Shown: positions 30,399-38,070 of the stretch, piece by piece
How the letters are laid out: each line of letters opens with the position of its first letter
How positions within the stretch are numbered: the stretch's first letter is position 1
Notes under the pieces: generated by a model
Told to the model about the DNA's origin: nothing
Seen by the model: only the letters and a program-made list of their open reading frames with translations
Database searches by the model: none
Translations under genes and position numbers: made by a program
Assembly (NCBI GenBank): GCA_026388185.1
Contig: JAPLKG010000008.1
Span: forward strand, 399,149 to 463,148
Source of the DNA: Candidatus Eisenbacteria bacterium
GTDB lineage: Bacteria > Eisenbacteria > RBG-16-71-46 > JAFGJU01
DNA: 64,000 nt
Direction: 5' to 3'

Positions 30399-32873
30399 AT
30401 GGTTTTCGAAATTCCCGAGATCCAGAGAATAGAGGAGAGGCTGGAGACCCTTCGCAGTGTCTTCGGCAATCCAGAGTATTTGGAGCGTCTGGAGCTCTTG
30501 GCAGATCTGTACTTGAAGGAGGACGGCTACGAGCCGGCACTAGAGTATCTGGAAGAGATCTTGTCGGAAACTCACAGACTCCAGATCTCAGACAAGAAGA
30601 GAATGCGCCTGCAAATGAAAGTCATTGACTGTCTCCTGAAGCGCTCGCGTTGCACGGAGGCCCTGGAGAGGTGCAAGGCCATTGCCAACGAGCCGGGGAC
30701 ACTGGAGGATCAAGAGCTCAGAGCACAGCTCAATCTGCTTTTCTCCAAGACGTACTGGAAAACAGGTGACTATCCGAATGCGTTGAAAGCCAGTCAGGAT
30801 GCGATTCAAATATTCGAGAGTCTTGGAGACGAACGCGGCGTAGCTCAGTGTCAATGCTGGTTTGGCAATAGCTATCTCAGGCTCGGCCAATTCGAAGCAG
30901 CGAGAGAGCATTTTGAAGAAGGTCTGGCAGCGTACAGGAGGGTGAAGGACAAGGAAGGAATTGCTATCTGTCATAATAACCTCGGTGTCATGCACAAGAA
31001 CCGTGGTGAGTGGCAGCTTGCCACAGATCATCTGACAAAAGCGTTGGAGCTGGACAGAGAAACTGGCAACTACGGGAAGACCGCGCTGAGACTACTGAAC
31101 CTGGGCCTTGTGTACTACAAGACTGCTCAATGGAGAAGAGCTAAGGAATCAATGGAAGAGGCTCTCGCGATTGCGAGACGCATTGGTGACCAGCATACCT
31201 GCGCTGCCGCGTCCATCGGACTGGGCAATTGTCTCAGACTGCTCGGTGATTCCGAGGGAGCTGAAAGGTTCTACGTCCAAGCGACTTCTATAGCCGAGAA
31301 AGAAAACTTATTGCGCGAGCTCGCTCTGGCCCACGAGTTCTCGGGAGAGAATGAGTTGAGCCGAGGGAATCCACAGGCGGCGCTCAGCAAGTTGGACCGG
31401 GCTCTTGCAATTGCAGAGGGAATTGCCCGGGACGGAGACATCGTTGCCGAAGTGGAGCGACGACGGGCCGAAGCGTTCCTCGATCTCGGGGACATCAAGA
31501 AAGCGTTGAAGGCATCAATGCGATCCCTGAAGCTCTGTCGCCTGCTCGGTGACAGGTATGAAGAAGGTGCCGTTCTTTCCGTTATCGCCAGACTCAAGGA
31601 AAGAGCAGGGCACAGAAGAAGCGCGATGGTTGCGTTCGACGCCTCGGTCAAGTGCCGTGAATCAGTCAGAGACAGATACGGCTTGGCCTCTACGTTGCTT
31701 CACCTTGGCCGATTCCTGCGTGGCGAAGTCTGTTCGCAGGACAGGAGCCGAGAGGTGAAGCGTGTTCTCGCAAGGGCTGCGGGACTCCTTGCGGAAGTCG
31801 GAGCCGAGACGCTTCTCAGAGAAGCAGAGAGAGAACTGGAGTCCGCCTGGGACGAAAGTGCCAAAGCCTCTGCCCCAGTTGCTGCGAGGCGGGCCGGCCG
31901 TCTGACACCTTGTTCAATGCACGGAATCGTGACCTGCGATGCTTCCTTGATCAGCGTGATATGCTATGCGGAGCAATTGTGCAAGAGCGATGCTAGAGTA
32001 TTGATTCAAGGCGAAACCGGCGCCGGCAAGAACCTTCTAGCATACATCTTCAAGGCGCACGAGGAATCTGAAGGACGACCGTTTGTTGAGCTCAACTGTG
32101 CCACCATTCCTGCGGAATTGCTGGAGAGCGAACTATTCGGCTACGCAAAGGGCGCCTTCAGCGGAGCCAATTCCGACAAGAAGGGAATACTCGAAGAGGC
32201 AAATGGGGGCACGCTGTTTCTCAACGAAATCGCCGAAATGGACTTGAGGATGCAGGCCAAACTCCTGCAGTTTCTGGACGACGGCTCGTACAGACGCGTA
32301 GGTGATACACGTCTACGAAAACTCCACACTCGTATAGTCTGTGCGACGAACAAGGACCTTTGGCAGCAGGTTGAGAAGGGGGCGTACAGGCGCGACCTGT
32401 ACTTCAGACTTTCGCAAGCCGTGCTGAACATCACCCCGCTGCGTGACAGAAGCGAAGATGTGCCGGTGCTGGCGAGGCACTTTGTGGAGATGTACGGCCG
32501 GTTCTGCTCAAAGCAATTGCGCTTAGATCCCCCTGCGATCGAGTTGTTGCAGCGGCACAGTTGGCCCGGCAACGTGCGAGAGTTAAGAAGCAAGATCCAA
32601 CTCCTTGTGCTGGGGATGCCAACGGGAGCGGTCATCACCGCGGGCGACGTTGAGAAGGTGCTTAGCACCCCCGAAGCAGAAGCCCAGCCTAAGACTCTGG
32701 CAGACAAGATCGAACGGCTTAAGAGAACGGAGATAACCCGTGCTCTTACCAAGTTTGGTGGTAACAAGACCAAGGCCGCTCAAGTGCTTGGAATGAGTCG
32801 GCGTGGGCTCGTCAAGGTCGTGGAACGGATGGATACCTGTAGCGGGGGAACTGGTCCGGGCGTAGTCGCATAA
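30399..32873 (+). CDS. TPR-sensor sigma-54-dependent transcriptional activator
   Basis: The protein has 824 residues. About 490 residues of TPR repeats (for example AICHNNLGVMHKNRGEWQL) replace the usual receiver or GAF domain. An AAA+ sigma-54 activator domain follows, and then a Fis-type helix-turn-helix (KFGGNKTKAAQVLGMSRRG). Walker A is GETGAGKN (538-545). The sigma-54-contact loop is GAFSGA (585-590) instead of GAFTGA. Walker B reads LFLNEI, with asparagine at residue 609 where aspartate is normal. The protein may be a weak ATPase or a specialised activator. The ATG at 30399 follows GGGGAGGT. A second, canonical activator lies at 36829. Confidence 0.88.
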   Translation: MVFEIPEIQRIEERLETLRSVFGNPEYLERLELLADLYLKEDGYEPALEYLEEILSETHRLQISDKKRMRLQMKVIDCLLKRSRCTEALERCKAIANEPGTLEDQELRAQLNLLFSKTYWKTGDYPNALKASQDAIQIFESLGDERGVAQCQCWFGNSYLRLGQFEAAREHFEEGLAAYRRVKDKEGIAICHNNLGVMHKNRGEWQLATDHLTKALELDRETGNYGKTALRLLNLGLVYYKTAQWRRAKESMEEALAIARRIGDQHTCAAASIGLGNCLRLLGDSEGAERFYVQATSIAEKENLLRELALAHEFSGENELSRGNPQAALSKLDRALAIAEGIARDGDIVAEVERRRAEAFLDLGDIKKALKASMRSLKLCRLLGDRYEEGAVLSVIARLKERAGHRRSAMVAFDASVKCRESVRDRYGLASTLLHLGRFLRGEVCSQDRSREVKRVLARAAGLLAEVGAETLLREAERELESAWDESAKASAPVAARRAGRLTPCSMHGIVTCDASLISVICYAEQLCKSDARVLIQGETGAGKNLLAYIFKAHEESEGRPFVELNCATIPAELLESELFGYAKGAFSGANSDKKGILEEANGGTLFLNEIAEMDLRMQAKLLQFLDDGSYRRVGDTRLRKLHTRIVCATNKDLWQQVEKGAYRRDLYFRLSQAVLNITPLRDRSEDVPVLARHFVEMYGRFCSKQLRLDPPAIELLQRHSWPGNVRELRSKIQLLVLGMPTGAVITAGDVEKVLSTPEAEAQPKTLADKIERLKRTEITRALTKFGGNKTKAAQVLGMSRRGLVKVVERMDTCSGGTGPGVVA

Positions 32874-32882
32874 GTCAAGACA

Positions 32883-32933
32883 AGAACGGCGTTCAACTGA
32901 GAACGTAGGTTACGTTCCGGAGAACGCCGTTCT
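32883..32933 (+). repeat. Nested perfect inverted repeats after the activator gene
   Basis: The outer arms AGAACGGCGTTC (32883-32894) and GAACGCCGTTCT (32922-32933) enclose a second hairpin, GAACGTA-GGT-TACGTTC (32901-32917). The outer 12 and inner 7 pairs are perfect. It starts 10 bases past the stop codon. No T-run follows. It may be a terminator, an RNA-stability element or a protein-binding site. The rest of 32934-33265 shows no gene. Confidence 0.5.
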
Positions 32934-33265
32934 CGTCAAGAGCCCTATGGAAGACACTCAAGTACAACCATCCTGCGGTTTCCGGGAATTCCGTTCCCAT
33001 TCGTTTCGCCTACCTCGTCACGAGCACTGCGGGAGGCGGAGGTGTCATCTTGTAACCTCTTCGGATTGCATCGGTTGCGGCGTAACCTTAAAGTGTTGAT
33101 TTCGACGGTGCGCGGGTACAGTTTCTGCAATGTTGGTCTTCGCCGATGAAGGGTGCCCGGGCGCATGGCACGAGGTCACAGCTCTTGAGCCAGCCTTAAG
33201 TGTCTGGCCAGATCGCACAAGCAGGCAGGCGTCGGGCACCCTCCCGGCTGCAAGAATTTTTGCCC

Positions 33266-33294
33266 TTGCAACTGAACCAGGGAAATGGTATATT
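33266..33294 (+). promoter_or_regulatory. Candidate promoter for the conserved gene - GGHAWW peptide - HD-GYP group
   Basis: TTGCAA (33266-33271), 17 bases, TATATT (33289-33294). It lies 36 bases upstream of the start at 33330. Confidence 0.5.
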
Positions 33295-33329: not shown

Positions 33330-34070
33330 ATGGGGGTCAGTTTGGCTAACGTGCTGCAAAAGTGTGCCCTTGCGATTCGTGCGGAGAATGTTCTCCGCGG
33401 ACTTCGGGACATCTCCGCCGTTTCTGTCCTTGCTGACGATGGACAGATCACCGAGATTCACATCACAACCGCCAGCAACCGTTCTCCGAAGCAGCTCGTC
33501 AGGGACGTGGAGTCGGCTCTCGAGGCCGAGCTCGGGCTGCGGGTTGACCACCGGTGTATAAGTATTGCTCAGAAGAAGGAATGCGGGGAAGGCGCCGAGG
33601 TCCGGGAGCTGACACTCGCCGATTTTTGCGAGCCGGACAACAAGGAGCCTAGAGTCCGTTTCGGTAGCATCAACGTGAATTTTTCCGAGCTCAAAGGTCA
33701 TGCCAAGGTAGAGCTTTGCCTTGATACTCTTGAGTCTGCGGGCTTTGCTGACGGTTCATGCGATCAGCATGACGTCAATAGACTGATAGCGAGTGCTACG
33801 TTACAGTCCATGGGACAGTTTGTCGCCGAGGAGTGTTCGTTATCCTTGAGCGACGTGGAGGTAATACACCTAGGGCCAGACCAGGTAGTCGTTGCCACGG
33901 TCAAGTTCCTGTTGGGTAGGACCGACACAACTCTTGTGGGATCAAGCGTTGTGTCGCAGAATCTGCATCAGAGCGTTGTGTATGCCGTTCTGGATGCGGT
34001 CAACAGAGTATTCGGCAACCTGCGTCTTAAGGAACCGGTGGAGTATGAAGTAAGACCGACATCAACTTGA
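33330..34070 (+). CDS. Conserved protein of unknown function (SPKQLVRDVES domain)
   Basis: The protein has 246 residues. The first part (about residues 10-85) looks like a small alpha/beta domain: VSVLADDGQITEIHI, then SPKQLVRDVESALEAELGL, then VDHRCISIAQ. A second domain (about 105-240) ends GSSVVSQNLHQSVVYAVLDA. I recall similar uncharacterised proteins in thermophilic Firmicutes and Actinobacteria but cannot name a family. It has no signal or membrane segment. It is followed by the GGHAWW peptide ORF and an HD-GYP gene. The start is ATG at 33330, or TTG at 33342 after GGGGGT. Confidence 0.7.
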   Translation: MGVSLANVLQKCALAIRAENVLRGLRDISAVSVLADDGQITEIHITTASNRSPKQLVRDVESALEAELGLRVDHRCISIAQKKECGEGAEVRELTLADFCEPDNKEPRVRFGSINVNFSELKGHAKVELCLDTLESAGFADGSCDQHDVNRLIASATLQSMGQFVAEECSLSLSDVEVIHLGPDQVVVATVKFLLGRTDTTLVGSSVVSQNLHQSVVYAVLDAVNRVFGNLRLKEPVEYEVRPTST

Positions 34071-34075
34071 GGCTG

Positions 34076-34106
34076 GAGCGAAGCGGCGTAACTAGAGCGA
34101 AGCGGC
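34076..34106 (+). repeat. Direct repeat of GAGCGAAGCGGC
   Basis: Two exact 12-base copies (34076-34087 and 34095-34106), 19 bases apart start to start, just after the stop of the conserved gene and before the peptide ORF. Confidence 0.4.
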
Positions 34107-34128
34107 CATCCTACCTTTCATTTCGCCG

Positions 34129-34149
34129 GGCAGTTTCTTGACTGCCTTT
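34129..34149 (+). terminator. Weak hairpin with T-run before the peptide ORF
   Basis: GGCAG (34129-34133) and CTGCC (34142-34146) can pair and are followed by TTT. It is short, and might attenuate transcription into the peptide ORF. Confidence 0.25.
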
Positions 34150-34169
34150 AAGGAGGTGGCTGCGGGGTT

Positions 34170-34292
34170 ATGCCAAAAGTAATTCATTCTATTCTCGCCG
34201 CCCTGCTCACGTACACGATAAGTGGTGGGCACGCCTGGTGGGCCAATGGTGGGCACGCCTGGTGGATGAGTGGCGGACACGCTTGGTGGTAG
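34170..34292 (+). CDS. 40-residue peptide with three C-terminal GGHAWW repeats
   Basis: ATG to TAG encodes 40 residues: a short hydrophobic start (VIHSILAALLTYTI, residues 4-17), then GGHAWW at 19-24, 27-32 and 35-40 with AN and MS between them; the last Trp is the C-terminus. The DNA unit is 24 bases. Copies one and two are identical over the 18-base core, and copy three differs at three third-codon positions only. AAGGAGG lies 14 bases upstream, a little far. Double-Trp ends recall ComS/XIP peptide pheromones of streptococci, but this is analogy only. It lies between the conserved gene and an HD-GYP membrane protein in the same direction. Confidence 0.6.
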   Translation: MPKVIHSILAALLTYTISGGHAWWANGGHAWWMSGGHAWW

Positions 34293-34420
34293 TAGTCGTG
34301 GCCTCGGTTGATGTCGGTTCTTGATTTTGGGCTTATCTTGGTGGTATGAATGTGTATGCTCGGTAACGTTCTTGAGTCGACGATGAACACCACCCGCTAC
34401 GTATTGGAGAACGTGACCCC

Positions 34421-35746
34421 ATGAAGTCTGCGGTAGCGACCAAGAGAGCCAGCGGCGGGCACCAACGCATTACTTTCTGGCTTTTCTACGTGTGCGTCGT
34501 AGCGGCAGGCATTCTCGCGCTGGCGCTCGCCCCGGTGCCGCCTGGCACTGTCAGTTCGCTCACGTTCTGGCTTTGGATCGCGCTCTTAATCCTAGCTGGC
34601 ATCGCTCCCATTCCTCTGCCCGCTGGTGGCTCCATGACTGTTTCTTCCGCGATGAACTATGCGGGTATTGTCGTAATGGGGCCTATCCCCACCGCTTGGG
34701 CGGGCGTAATCAGTGCGATGTTTCTTCAGCTCGTCATACTCCGCAAGCCGGTAGTAAAGAGTATTTTCAATGCGGCTGTCCTGGCTTTGACCGTGCTTGT
34801 GGCTGGGTGGGTGTATCTGGCCCTTGGGGGGACGGTGGGTAAGCTGCACCTACCGGGTGACATGCTTTACCTCTTGATATCCGGCATTGCCTATTTCGTG
34901 GTCAATACGGGTTCCATCAGTCTTGTCATCGGCCTTGAACAAAGGCTGAATACTTTTCGTGTCTGGCAAGTCAACTTCATGTGGACGATTCTTCACCTCT
35001 TGGCCCTGCTCCCCTTCGGCGCATTGCTTGCTTTGGTATATCTCAGTGCGGGGATGTGGGCCATTCTCCTCTTCTTCGTCCCGCTCCTTCTCGCCAGATA
35101 CTCCTTCAAGCTCTACGTTGACATGCGGAGAGATCATTTTGATTTTGTGAAGGCACTCACGGGAGTCATCGACGAAATCGACCCATACACGCGGCAGCAT
35201 TCGCTACGTGTTGCGGAGTACTCTGTTCGTCTCGCGCGGGGGCTCGGATTGCGCGAGAGCGATGTTCGGACCATAGAGTATGCCGCTCTCGTGCACGATC
35301 TGGGCAAGGTTGACTTGAGGTACAGGGACATACTGGGGAAGCCGGGCGCGCTCTCGACGGACGAGAGGAAGACGCTGCGGAGGCATCCCGGCATTGGGGC
35401 CGACATAGTGACCAAGGTCAAATCCCTCAAGAGAGCTTCCGAGATGGTTCGCTCACATCATGAGAGACCGGACGGGAAGGGGTATCCATACGGCCTTGTC
35501 GATCAAGACGTTCCCCTGGGTGCGCGGATCCTAAACGTGGCAGACGCCTTCGACGCGATGACGTCCGACCGTCCGTACAGGCCGGCCCTGACTCTTGAGC
35601 AGGCGGTCGCAGAAGTCAAGCGCTGCTGCGATACCCAGTTTGACAAGAGAGTTGCGGGTTGTCTCGTGAGAATGTACGAGGCGGGGCAGTTCGACGTGTA
35701 CAGAGAAGGGCGTGAGGAAACGCACTCCATGAGGGCCGCGGGCTAG
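34421..35746 (+). CDS. Membrane-anchored HD-GYP domain protein
   Basis: The protein has 441 residues. Six or seven N-terminal membrane helices (about residues 20-225) precede an HD domain with HSLRVAEYSVRLARGLGL, VHDLGKVDLR and the GYP-type motif HHERPDGKGYPYGL, then DAFDAMTSDRPYR. HD-GYP proteins hydrolyse cyclic di-GMP or related dinucleotides; the metal-binding residues look complete. The membrane part resembles sensory modules. With a small peptide ORF just upstream it could be a receptor, but that is inference. The ATG follows GGAG at 12 bases. purM starts 22 bases after the stop. Confidence 0.87.
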   Translation: MKSAVATKRASGGHQRITFWLFYVCVVAAGILALALAPVPPGTVSSLTFWLWIALLILAGIAPIPLPAGGSMTVSSAMNYAGIVVMGPIPTAWAGVISAMFLQLVILRKPVVKSIFNAAVLALTVLVAGWVYLALGGTVGKLHLPGDMLYLLISGIAYFVVNTGSISLVIGLEQRLNTFRVWQVNFMWTILHLLALLPFGALLALVYLSAGMWAILLFFVPLLLARYSFKLYVDMRRDHFDFVKALTGVIDEIDPYTRQHSLRVAEYSVRLARGLGLRESDVRTIEYAALVHDLGKVDLRYRDILGKPGALSTDERKTLRRHPGIGADIVTKVKSLKRASEMVRSHHERPDGKGYPYGLVDQDVPLGARILNVADAFDAMTSDRPYRPALTLEQAVAEVKRCCDTQFDKRVAGCLVRMYEAGQFDVYREGREETHSMRAAG

Positions 35747-36791: not shown

Positions 36792-36828
36792 ATTTGCTCA
36801 ACTCCCGAATGGGGAAGAGGAGGGTGTG

Positions 36829-38070
36829 ATGGATGTGTTCCGGGACAAGAGCAGAAAGGAACGTGCCTGCTCCGAACCTTCTGACTCTGAGACAAGACGA
36901 TCGTTTCCGCTTGGCAATGCTGCTTCCCTGTCCGACGACGCTGCTGTTGCGTCTGAGGACTCCGCCCCTTCAGCCGCTGACGCTCATCCCGGCCTCGATG
37001 TTCGCTCGCTCCGCGATATTCATCCTGCGCGCGAGGGCCGGTCAGTCGCAGCGTCCGAGGCCGTTGCGAGTGCCCTGATGAAGCTGGTAGGCCGTAGCAG
37101 AGAAATGCTGCACGTCCATGAACTGATCAAGAAGATCGCGCTCTGCGACACGACGGTCCTCATCGAGGGTGAGACCGGCACGGGAAAGGAACTGGTCGCA
37201 AAGGCGATCCATCAACTCGGGCGCCGCCGTGGCTCCAACTTTCTTGCTCACAACTGTGGAGCGACCCCCGACACTCTCATCGAAAGCGAGCTCTTCGGCC
37301 ACGTGAAGGGGGCTTTCACCGGCGCAGTGCAGGACAAGAAGGGGCTGTTCGAGGTGGCCGATGGAGGCACCTTTTTCCTGGATGAGATCGCGGACATAAG
37401 CTCGATGATGCAGATCAAGCTCCTGCGCGTTCTCCAGGAGCGCGAGTTCAGAAGGGTGGGGGAGACTCAGGCACGAAGGATCGACGTACGAGTCATTGCG
37501 GCCACGAACCGGGATTTGCTCGGCGAAGTCGAGCAAGGGAGATTTCGAAGAGATCTGTATTATCGTCTGGGTGTGATCAAGCTCAGATTGCCCGCGCTGC
37601 GAGAAAGAAGAGACGATATACCGGCGCTCGTCGAGCATTTTCTTGCGATACAGGCGCGCAGAATCGGGGCTCGCACCATTGCCGTGCGTGAGAACGCACT
37701 GGAGGTCTTGAGAAACTACGATTGGCCGGGAAACGTGCGGGAGCTGGAGAACGAAATGGAAAGGGCGGTCGCGCTCGGCCATCCGGGAACGGAAGTCACC
37801 CTCTGGGGATTGTCCGACGCAGTAAGGAGCAACAGTTGCGCAGCGGTGTGCGACCTCGGCCCCGCCGGCACCTTGAAGTACGAGACCGACCGTTTGGAAA
37901 GACAGAGAATCCTCGAGGCCCTGGAGTCGAGCATGTGGAACAAGACTCGCGCCGCAAAAGCACTTGGCCTGAGCAGGCAGGGTCTGCTCAAGAAGATGCG
38001 GAGGTTCAAGCTGGGAAACGGCCACACGGGGCCCTCGGAGACGACGGGCCGGCCAGGAAGCAGTAAGTGA
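36829..38070 (+). CDS. Sigma-54-dependent transcriptional activator, canonical motifs
   Basis: The protein has 413 residues. A 70-residue Ser/Ala/Asp-rich N-terminus without a known sensor domain precedes the AAA+ domain: Walker A GETGTGKE, contact loop GAFTGA, Walker B FFLDEIAD, then FRRDLYYRLGVIKLRLP and WPGNVRELENE. The C-terminus has a Fis-type helix-turn-helix (KTRAAKALGLSRQGLLKK). It should open sigma-54 promoters. A near-consensus promoter of that class lies 450 bases downstream at 38524. GAGGAGGG precedes the ATG at 36829. Confidence 0.9.
   Translation: MDVFRDKSRKERACSEPSDSETRRSFPLGNAASLSDDAAVASEDSAPSAADAHPGLDVRSLRDIHPAREGRSVAASEAVASALMKLVGRSREMLHVHELIKKIALCDTTVLIEGETGTGKELVAKAIHQLGRRRGSNFLAHNCGATPDTLIESELFGHVKGAFTGAVQDKKGLFEVADGGTFFLDEIADISSMMQIKLLRVLQEREFRRVGETQARRIDVRVIAATNRDLLGEVEQGRFRRDLYYRLGVIKLRLPALRERRDDIPALVEHFLAIQARRIGARTIAVRENALEVLRNYDWPGNVRELENEMERAVALGHPGTEVTLWGLSDAVRSNSCAAVCDLGPAGTLKYETDRLERQRILEALESSMWNKTRAAKALGLSRQGLLKKMRRFKLGNGHTGPSETTGRPGSSK

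Follow-up and report, generated by a model that had tools for sequence, protein, structure and literature searches.

Several described systems resemble parts of the locus analysed here. Membrane HD-GYP phosphodiesterases with a MASE9 sensor are known, as are the ECF S-components, among which CbiM and NikM work with the small membrane partners CbiN and NikN. Streptococcal ComS/XIP are short, Trp-containing peptide pheromones, with a hydrophobic N-terminal part in the precursor and a Trp-rich functional C-terminal end, and TnaC is a leader peptide encoded in a structured mRNA leader. To our knowledge, few membrane HD-GYP proteins have a described input. In the main text of a review on the sensory inputs of c-di-GMP signalling, the word 'peptide' occurs once (PMC8846402). 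The open-access papers searched, which connect HD-GYP proteins with leader peptides, pheromones or RNA motifs, with MASE domains, or with small membrane proteins, do not describe the module presented below, an absence that is no proof of novelty.

The window, i.e. the whole stretch of 64,000 nucleotides that was analysed, comes from a genome of 2.6 Mb; among named records, its close relatives belong to Candidatus Eisenbacteria (L022, CP070702.1, is one of them). The features relevant here are the following.

33330-34070, + strand: gene 1, a protein of 246 aa (from the ORF list, homologues, AlphaFold, Foldseek and Pfam)
34054-34319, + strand: structured RNA element enclosing the peptide ORF (fold z = -4.52 against 200 dinucleotide shuffles)
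34054-34067, + strand: 5' arm of stem P1, GACCGACATCAACT, lying within the end of gene 1 and pairing with 34306-34319
34077-34086, + strand: AGCGAAGCGG motif, copy 1; AGCGRAGCG nearly invariant in 20 Eisenbacteria sequences
34096-34105, + strand: AGCGAAGCGG motif, copy 2; AGCGRAGCG likewise nearly invariant in the 20 sequences
34102-34110, + strand: GCGGCCATC, predicted to pair with the peptide Shine-Dalgarno region at 34155-34163
34150-34159, + strand: extended Shine-Dalgarno of the peptide ORF, AAGGAGGTGG; AGGAGGTG invariant in 20 Eisenbacteria sequences
34170-34292, + strand: peptide ORF of 40 aa, MPKVIHSILAALLTYTISGGHAWWANGGHAWWMSGGHAWW, conserved in relatives at the equivalent place, with a coding signature in the homologues
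34224-34289, + strand: three GGHAWW units (34224-34241, 34248-34265 and 34272-34289), read from the sequence
34306-34319, + strand: 3' arm of P1, GGTTGATGTCGGTT, 13 nt past the peptide stop codon
34421-35746, + strand: membrane HD-GYP protein of 441 aa, with a MASE9 sensor (residues ca. 14-214) and an HD-GYP domain (ca. 226-429), from Pfam and AlphaFold

A preliminary description of this DNA had grouped gene 1, the peptide and the HD-GYP gene into a three-part module behind one promoter candidate. The three ORFs are indeed where it placed them, all on the + strand and with zero intervening genes, and our scan recovered the promoter candidate at 33266-33294. However, the scan found two sites where 1.2 ± 1.1 are expected by chance, so this candidate is no evidence of co-transcription. 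The three-gene picture also overlooked the structured RNA around the peptide ORF.

Directly upstream of gene 1, the window and the relatives G001 and G002 carry a gene for a TPR plus sigma-54 activator protein (30399-32873 in the window), a position taken in more distant relatives by a PfkB-type kinase gene. Several GAAC...GTTC-like inverted repeats (GAACGGCGTTC, GAACGTAGGTTACGTTC and GAGAACGCCGTTCTC), possibly activator binding sites, lie just past the activator gene, at 32884-32936. Behind purM, at 36826-38070 of the window, lies another sigma-54 activator, in which no N-terminal sensor domain is recognised. In an actinobacterial relative (L055), a raiA RNA (RF03072, 159 bits; 838-1074) is located around 5 kb upstream of gene 1.

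Gene 1 homologues were present in 36 of the 59 genomes searched, and the scan of genome contigs placed them in Eisenbacteria, Coriobacteriia and other Actinobacteria, Firmicutes, Armatimonadota, Zixibacteria and Latescibacterota. The protein has no Pfam family of its own and, by sequence, no significant match among solved structures. Its AlphaFold model (pLDDT 90.5) shows an N-terminal alpha-beta domain followed by two beta-beta-beta-alpha units. The top Foldseek matches were LeuA (best 6e-6), the nearest solved folds being the LeuA allosteric (dimerisation) domain, and the corresponding Pfam family, LeuA_dimer (PF08502), matched six of 64 gene 1 homologues (up to 3.5e-7), the window protein itself not among them. 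The predicted structure of gene 1 resembles this domain in its two beta-beta-beta-alpha units and, unlike LeuA, lacks the catalytic domain and contains an extra N-terminal domain; the protein possibly binds a ligand. Weak structural matches to dsRNA-binding domains were discarded for their low TM-scores.

The protein encoded after the peptide matches HD_5 (PF13487, 5e-33) and MASE9 (PF20972, 1.7e-7; 31.8 bits against a gathering threshold of 24.3), and nine of 12 members of the sensor alignment match PF20972 at E<=0.1. It has the domain order and catalytic motifs of known MASE9 membrane HD-GYP phosphodiesterases, both domains scoring above the gathering cut-offs. The HD, HH and GYP motifs are intact (HDLGK and HHERPDGKGYP), which identifies it by motifs as an HD-GYP domain phosphodiesterase, predicted to hydrolyse c-di-GMP or 3'3'-cGAMP. 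In structure comparisons with its AlphaFold model (pLDDT 88.3), the HD-GYP domain reached Z 25.7 to the HD-GYP of DvhD, and the sensor Z 16.7 both to NikM2 (4m5b, 188 residues) and to RibU (5kbw, 160 residues). The MASE9 sensor is therefore predicted to have the fold of ECF S-components, including NikM/CbiM. Unlike these, it is fused to an HD-GYP domain, and no ECF energy-coupling genes were noticed beside it in the ORF list of the window. What sets the locus apart from described MASE9 HD-GYPs is the conserved peptide and the structured RNA directly upstream.

In relatives, the interval from gene 1 to the HD-GYP gene repeatedly contains a short ORF preceded by a strong Shine-Dalgarno, for instance MPKLIYTIIAALLSYITVSGGQSNWW in G002, MDFIYELIEFLGRAGW in G030, MKRILVLLSSLAAMVLAGGAALRW in Coriobacteriia, MQKVLKVVLALIAVVLVGGANARW in Carboxydocella and MKLNAALVKILLALMALVLAGGANFKFG in Thermosediminibacter. 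An ORF meeting a fixed peptide criterion was found in 49 of 51 loci, against 18 of 2550 dinucleotide shuffles. Furthermore, pN/pS was 0.40 in 14 Coriobacteriia sequences (1.23 and 2.36 in the shifted frames) and 0.51 in eight Eisenbacteria sequences (0.70 and 3.41), a sequence signature indicating that the ORF is coding. Peptide lengths ranged from 16 to 40 aa (median 25) in a set of 125 distinct peptides that contains one clear false positive (L227) and a few over-long automatic starts. In this set, 86 peptides have Trp within the last four residues and 107 contain a GGA-like motif of small residues near the end. The C-terminal pattern is followed by a variable tail (W, WG, WGP or WPPP), its distance to the stop codon not being fixed. 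Neither Pfam nor NCBIfam contained a match to the peptide, and no further copies were found in its own genome. In unit 3 of the GGHAWW repeat, three third codon positions are silently changed relative to units 1 and 2; the triplication is probably recent in this genome, because the family relative G002 has a single unit-like end, SGGQSNWW.

The RNA that encloses this ORF spans 190-275 nt across loci, contains repeated AGCGRAGCGG motifs and is closed by P1, which is conserved as a structure. Among 35 representative stems, 93% of cells pair and eight of 11 pairs have changed on both sides, with a covariation score of 0.525 as compared with 0.247 for shuffles and at most 0.141 for slid controls. 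The arms of this first set were partly selected by complementarity, a bias addressed by swapped and shuffled controls: in a further set of 82 loci, some of which share genomes with the first, a strong stem appeared in 52, against 20 of 328 arms swapped between loci and eight of 410 shuffled 3' sequences. A helix over the peptide Shine-Dalgarno region reached a stem score of at least 18 in 65% of loci, as opposed to 19% of shuffles, and its sequences differ by lineage (CCCACCT/AGGTGGG, GAGAAGACC/GGTCTTCTC and TTTATAGCC/GGCTATAAA). No Rfam 15 family covers the element at gathering or relaxed thresholds. Our covariance model R1, built on the Eisenbacteria 5' part, matched 24 of 59 genomes, each of them once and at the locus of gene 1. 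In Coriobacteriia the motif is mostly single-copy and occurs in 38 of 45 genomes with the sensor domain, with seven genomes unmatched on each side.

According to the preliminary description, the module would fall if homologues of its three genes were not neighbours elsewhere. They adjoin across several phyla, and the presence of the peptide follows that of the membrane HD-GYP gene; the trio is nevertheless not tight, since gene 1 and the peptide each occur apart. In the Eisenbacteria class the peptide was present in 22 of 22 loci with the HD-GYP gene and in none of 11 that have gene 1 and lack the HD-GYP gene; in several of these 11, gene 1 is followed directly by purM. In Firmicutes, Coriobacteriia and Armatimonadota, where loci were gathered through a sensor-domain search, the 94 loci where gene 1 adjoins the gene of the sensor protein all contain the peptide. 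It was recognised by an automatic rule in 82 of them and by eye in 12; Armatimonadota peptides with a proline-rich tail are included. Most MASE9-domain loci without an adjacent gene 1 lack the peptide. Three such loci (L173, L179 and L229) have it right before the MASE9-domain protein, and also lack the AGCGRAGCG motif; L173 and L179 encode complete HD-GYP proteins, L229 is truncated by the contig end, and the genome containing L173 (G214) has no gene 1 at all. These loci, along with the 22 of 22 versus none of 11 distribution, tie the peptide to the HD-GYP protein and not to gene 1, which is a frequent but separable neighbour of the pair.

Two Latescibacterota loci (L082 and L084) have gene 1 beside a MASE9-type HD-GYP gene, with neither peptide nor RNA motif, an arrangement that possibly predates a gain or follows a loss. 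At L148-L152, L175-L178, L180, L183, L184 and L188, paralogues carry this sensor domain within a longer protein, mostly of 560-630 aa; peptide, gene 1 and RNA motif are absent there. In a coevolution test, peptide distances correlated equally with those of gene 1 and of the sensor (partial r 0.42 and 0.44), so no sensor-specific coevolution is demonstrated.

We favour, with a probability of roughly 0.52, the interpretation that the peptide is a ligand or small regulatory subunit of the membrane HD-GYP sensor, and that its synthesis is gated by the RNA. The peptide, of 16-40 aa, hydrophobic or amphipathic and with a turn of small residues and a basic/aromatic C-terminal end, would act on the S-component-fold sensor of the HD-GYP protein encoded after it and would thereby alter cyclic dinucleotide breakdown, while the RNA, by folding over the ribosome-binding site of the peptide, probably sets the timing of its synthesis. 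Peptide binding, the direction of its effect, the trigger of the RNA and export or membrane insertion are steps that we infer. A single membrane mode does not suit all peptides, since the 16-aa Eisenbacteria forms contain acidic residues, unlike transmembrane segments. The window peptide resembles ComS/XIP in being a short precursor with a hydrophobic N-terminal part and a Trp-rich end that would be the functional one. It differs from them in its proposed partner, a membrane phosphodiesterase instead of a cytosolic RRNPP regulator: its conserved neighbour is the membrane HD-GYP gene and not a cytosolic TPR-type receptor, the TPR-sigma54 gene lying upstream of gene 1 in the closest relatives only. 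No export or import genes were noticed adjoining the window peptide.

The main rival to the peptide as a product, less probable but serious, is a regulatory leader peptide, in which ribosomes would pause near the conserved Gly/basic/Trp end in answer to a metabolite or to translation stress and the RNA would relay this to HD-GYP expression, the peptide having no later role. Its strength lies in the layout, which is a leader's: a short ORF within a structured RNA just upstream of a gene is the classic arrangement, as in TnaC and the mgtCBR leader (PMC3641672). Conserved C-terminal residues, Trp-rich in the window, would fit such pausing, and in many loci the 3' arm of P1 starts 8-20 nt past the stop codon of the peptide, where a terminating ribosome could reach it; for the 16-aa peptides of Eisenbacteria, however, this distance is 38-52 nt. 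Attenuation further implies an intrinsic terminator between the leader ORF and the regulated gene. L173 has a terminator-like hairpin at this place, but such hairpins followed the peptide in only three of 90 loci, counted in a repeat scan with sub-stems after a first one had been too strict (shuffled rate 1%). The gap between the peptide stop and the sensor gene can be as short as 60 nt or exceed 300 nt, and coupling to the HD-GYP start is not conserved. Variable spacing and rare terminators thus agree badly with control of the following gene by a leader. Moreover, and unlike in the TnaC and mgtCBR leaders, there is no conserved terminator and the Shine-Dalgarno region that the RNA covers by pairing is that of the peptide itself, which makes the peptide look like the regulated product. 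The variable tails after the conserved motif and the multiplied GGHAWW end add to the masked ribosome-binding site, the variable spacing and the rare terminators in favour of a peptide product.

We consider improbable a dual-function RNA, comparable in layout to RNAIII with delta-haemolysin, that would be released as a trans-acting small RNA and also encode a membrane-active peptide, its linkage to HD-GYP being regulatory. A long-range closing stem with covariation and a single copy per genome would suit it, as would the U-run behind the 3' arm of P1 in some Firmicutes, but this run is missing in the Eisenbacteria and Coriobacteriia examples, and the peptide is kept before the MASE9 protein in the three motif-free loci. 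Lastly, a stand-alone toxin or bacteriocin-like peptide lying beside the HD-GYP gene by chance, suggested by the short hydrophobic peptide and masked ribosome-binding site, as in the layout of type I toxin systems, is hardly credible for a single-copy peptide that has the same neighbour across several phyla and is absent where the HD-GYP gene is absent.

Returning to the peptide as an RNA-gated product, a bolder and more tentative version would make the locus a cross-phylum signalling system: the RNA would sense a cue, and the peptide would then be translated, undergo processing at the membrane or insertion into it, and bind to the sensor, which would control the HD-GYP phosphodiesterase; in this Eisenbacterium, GGHAWW would be the active unit, present three times in a single precursor. 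In all, a peptide and an RNA before a membrane second-messenger enzyme, in several unrelated phyla, point to an undescribed signalling or control system. With ORFs of 16-40 codons, the peptide family tends to escape standard annotation. If our interpretation is correct, it would add one RNA family and one peptide family, and the RNA-gated peptide would be a concrete candidate input for a membrane HD-GYP protein, testable in cultured relatives such as Carboxydocella and Thermosediminibacter.
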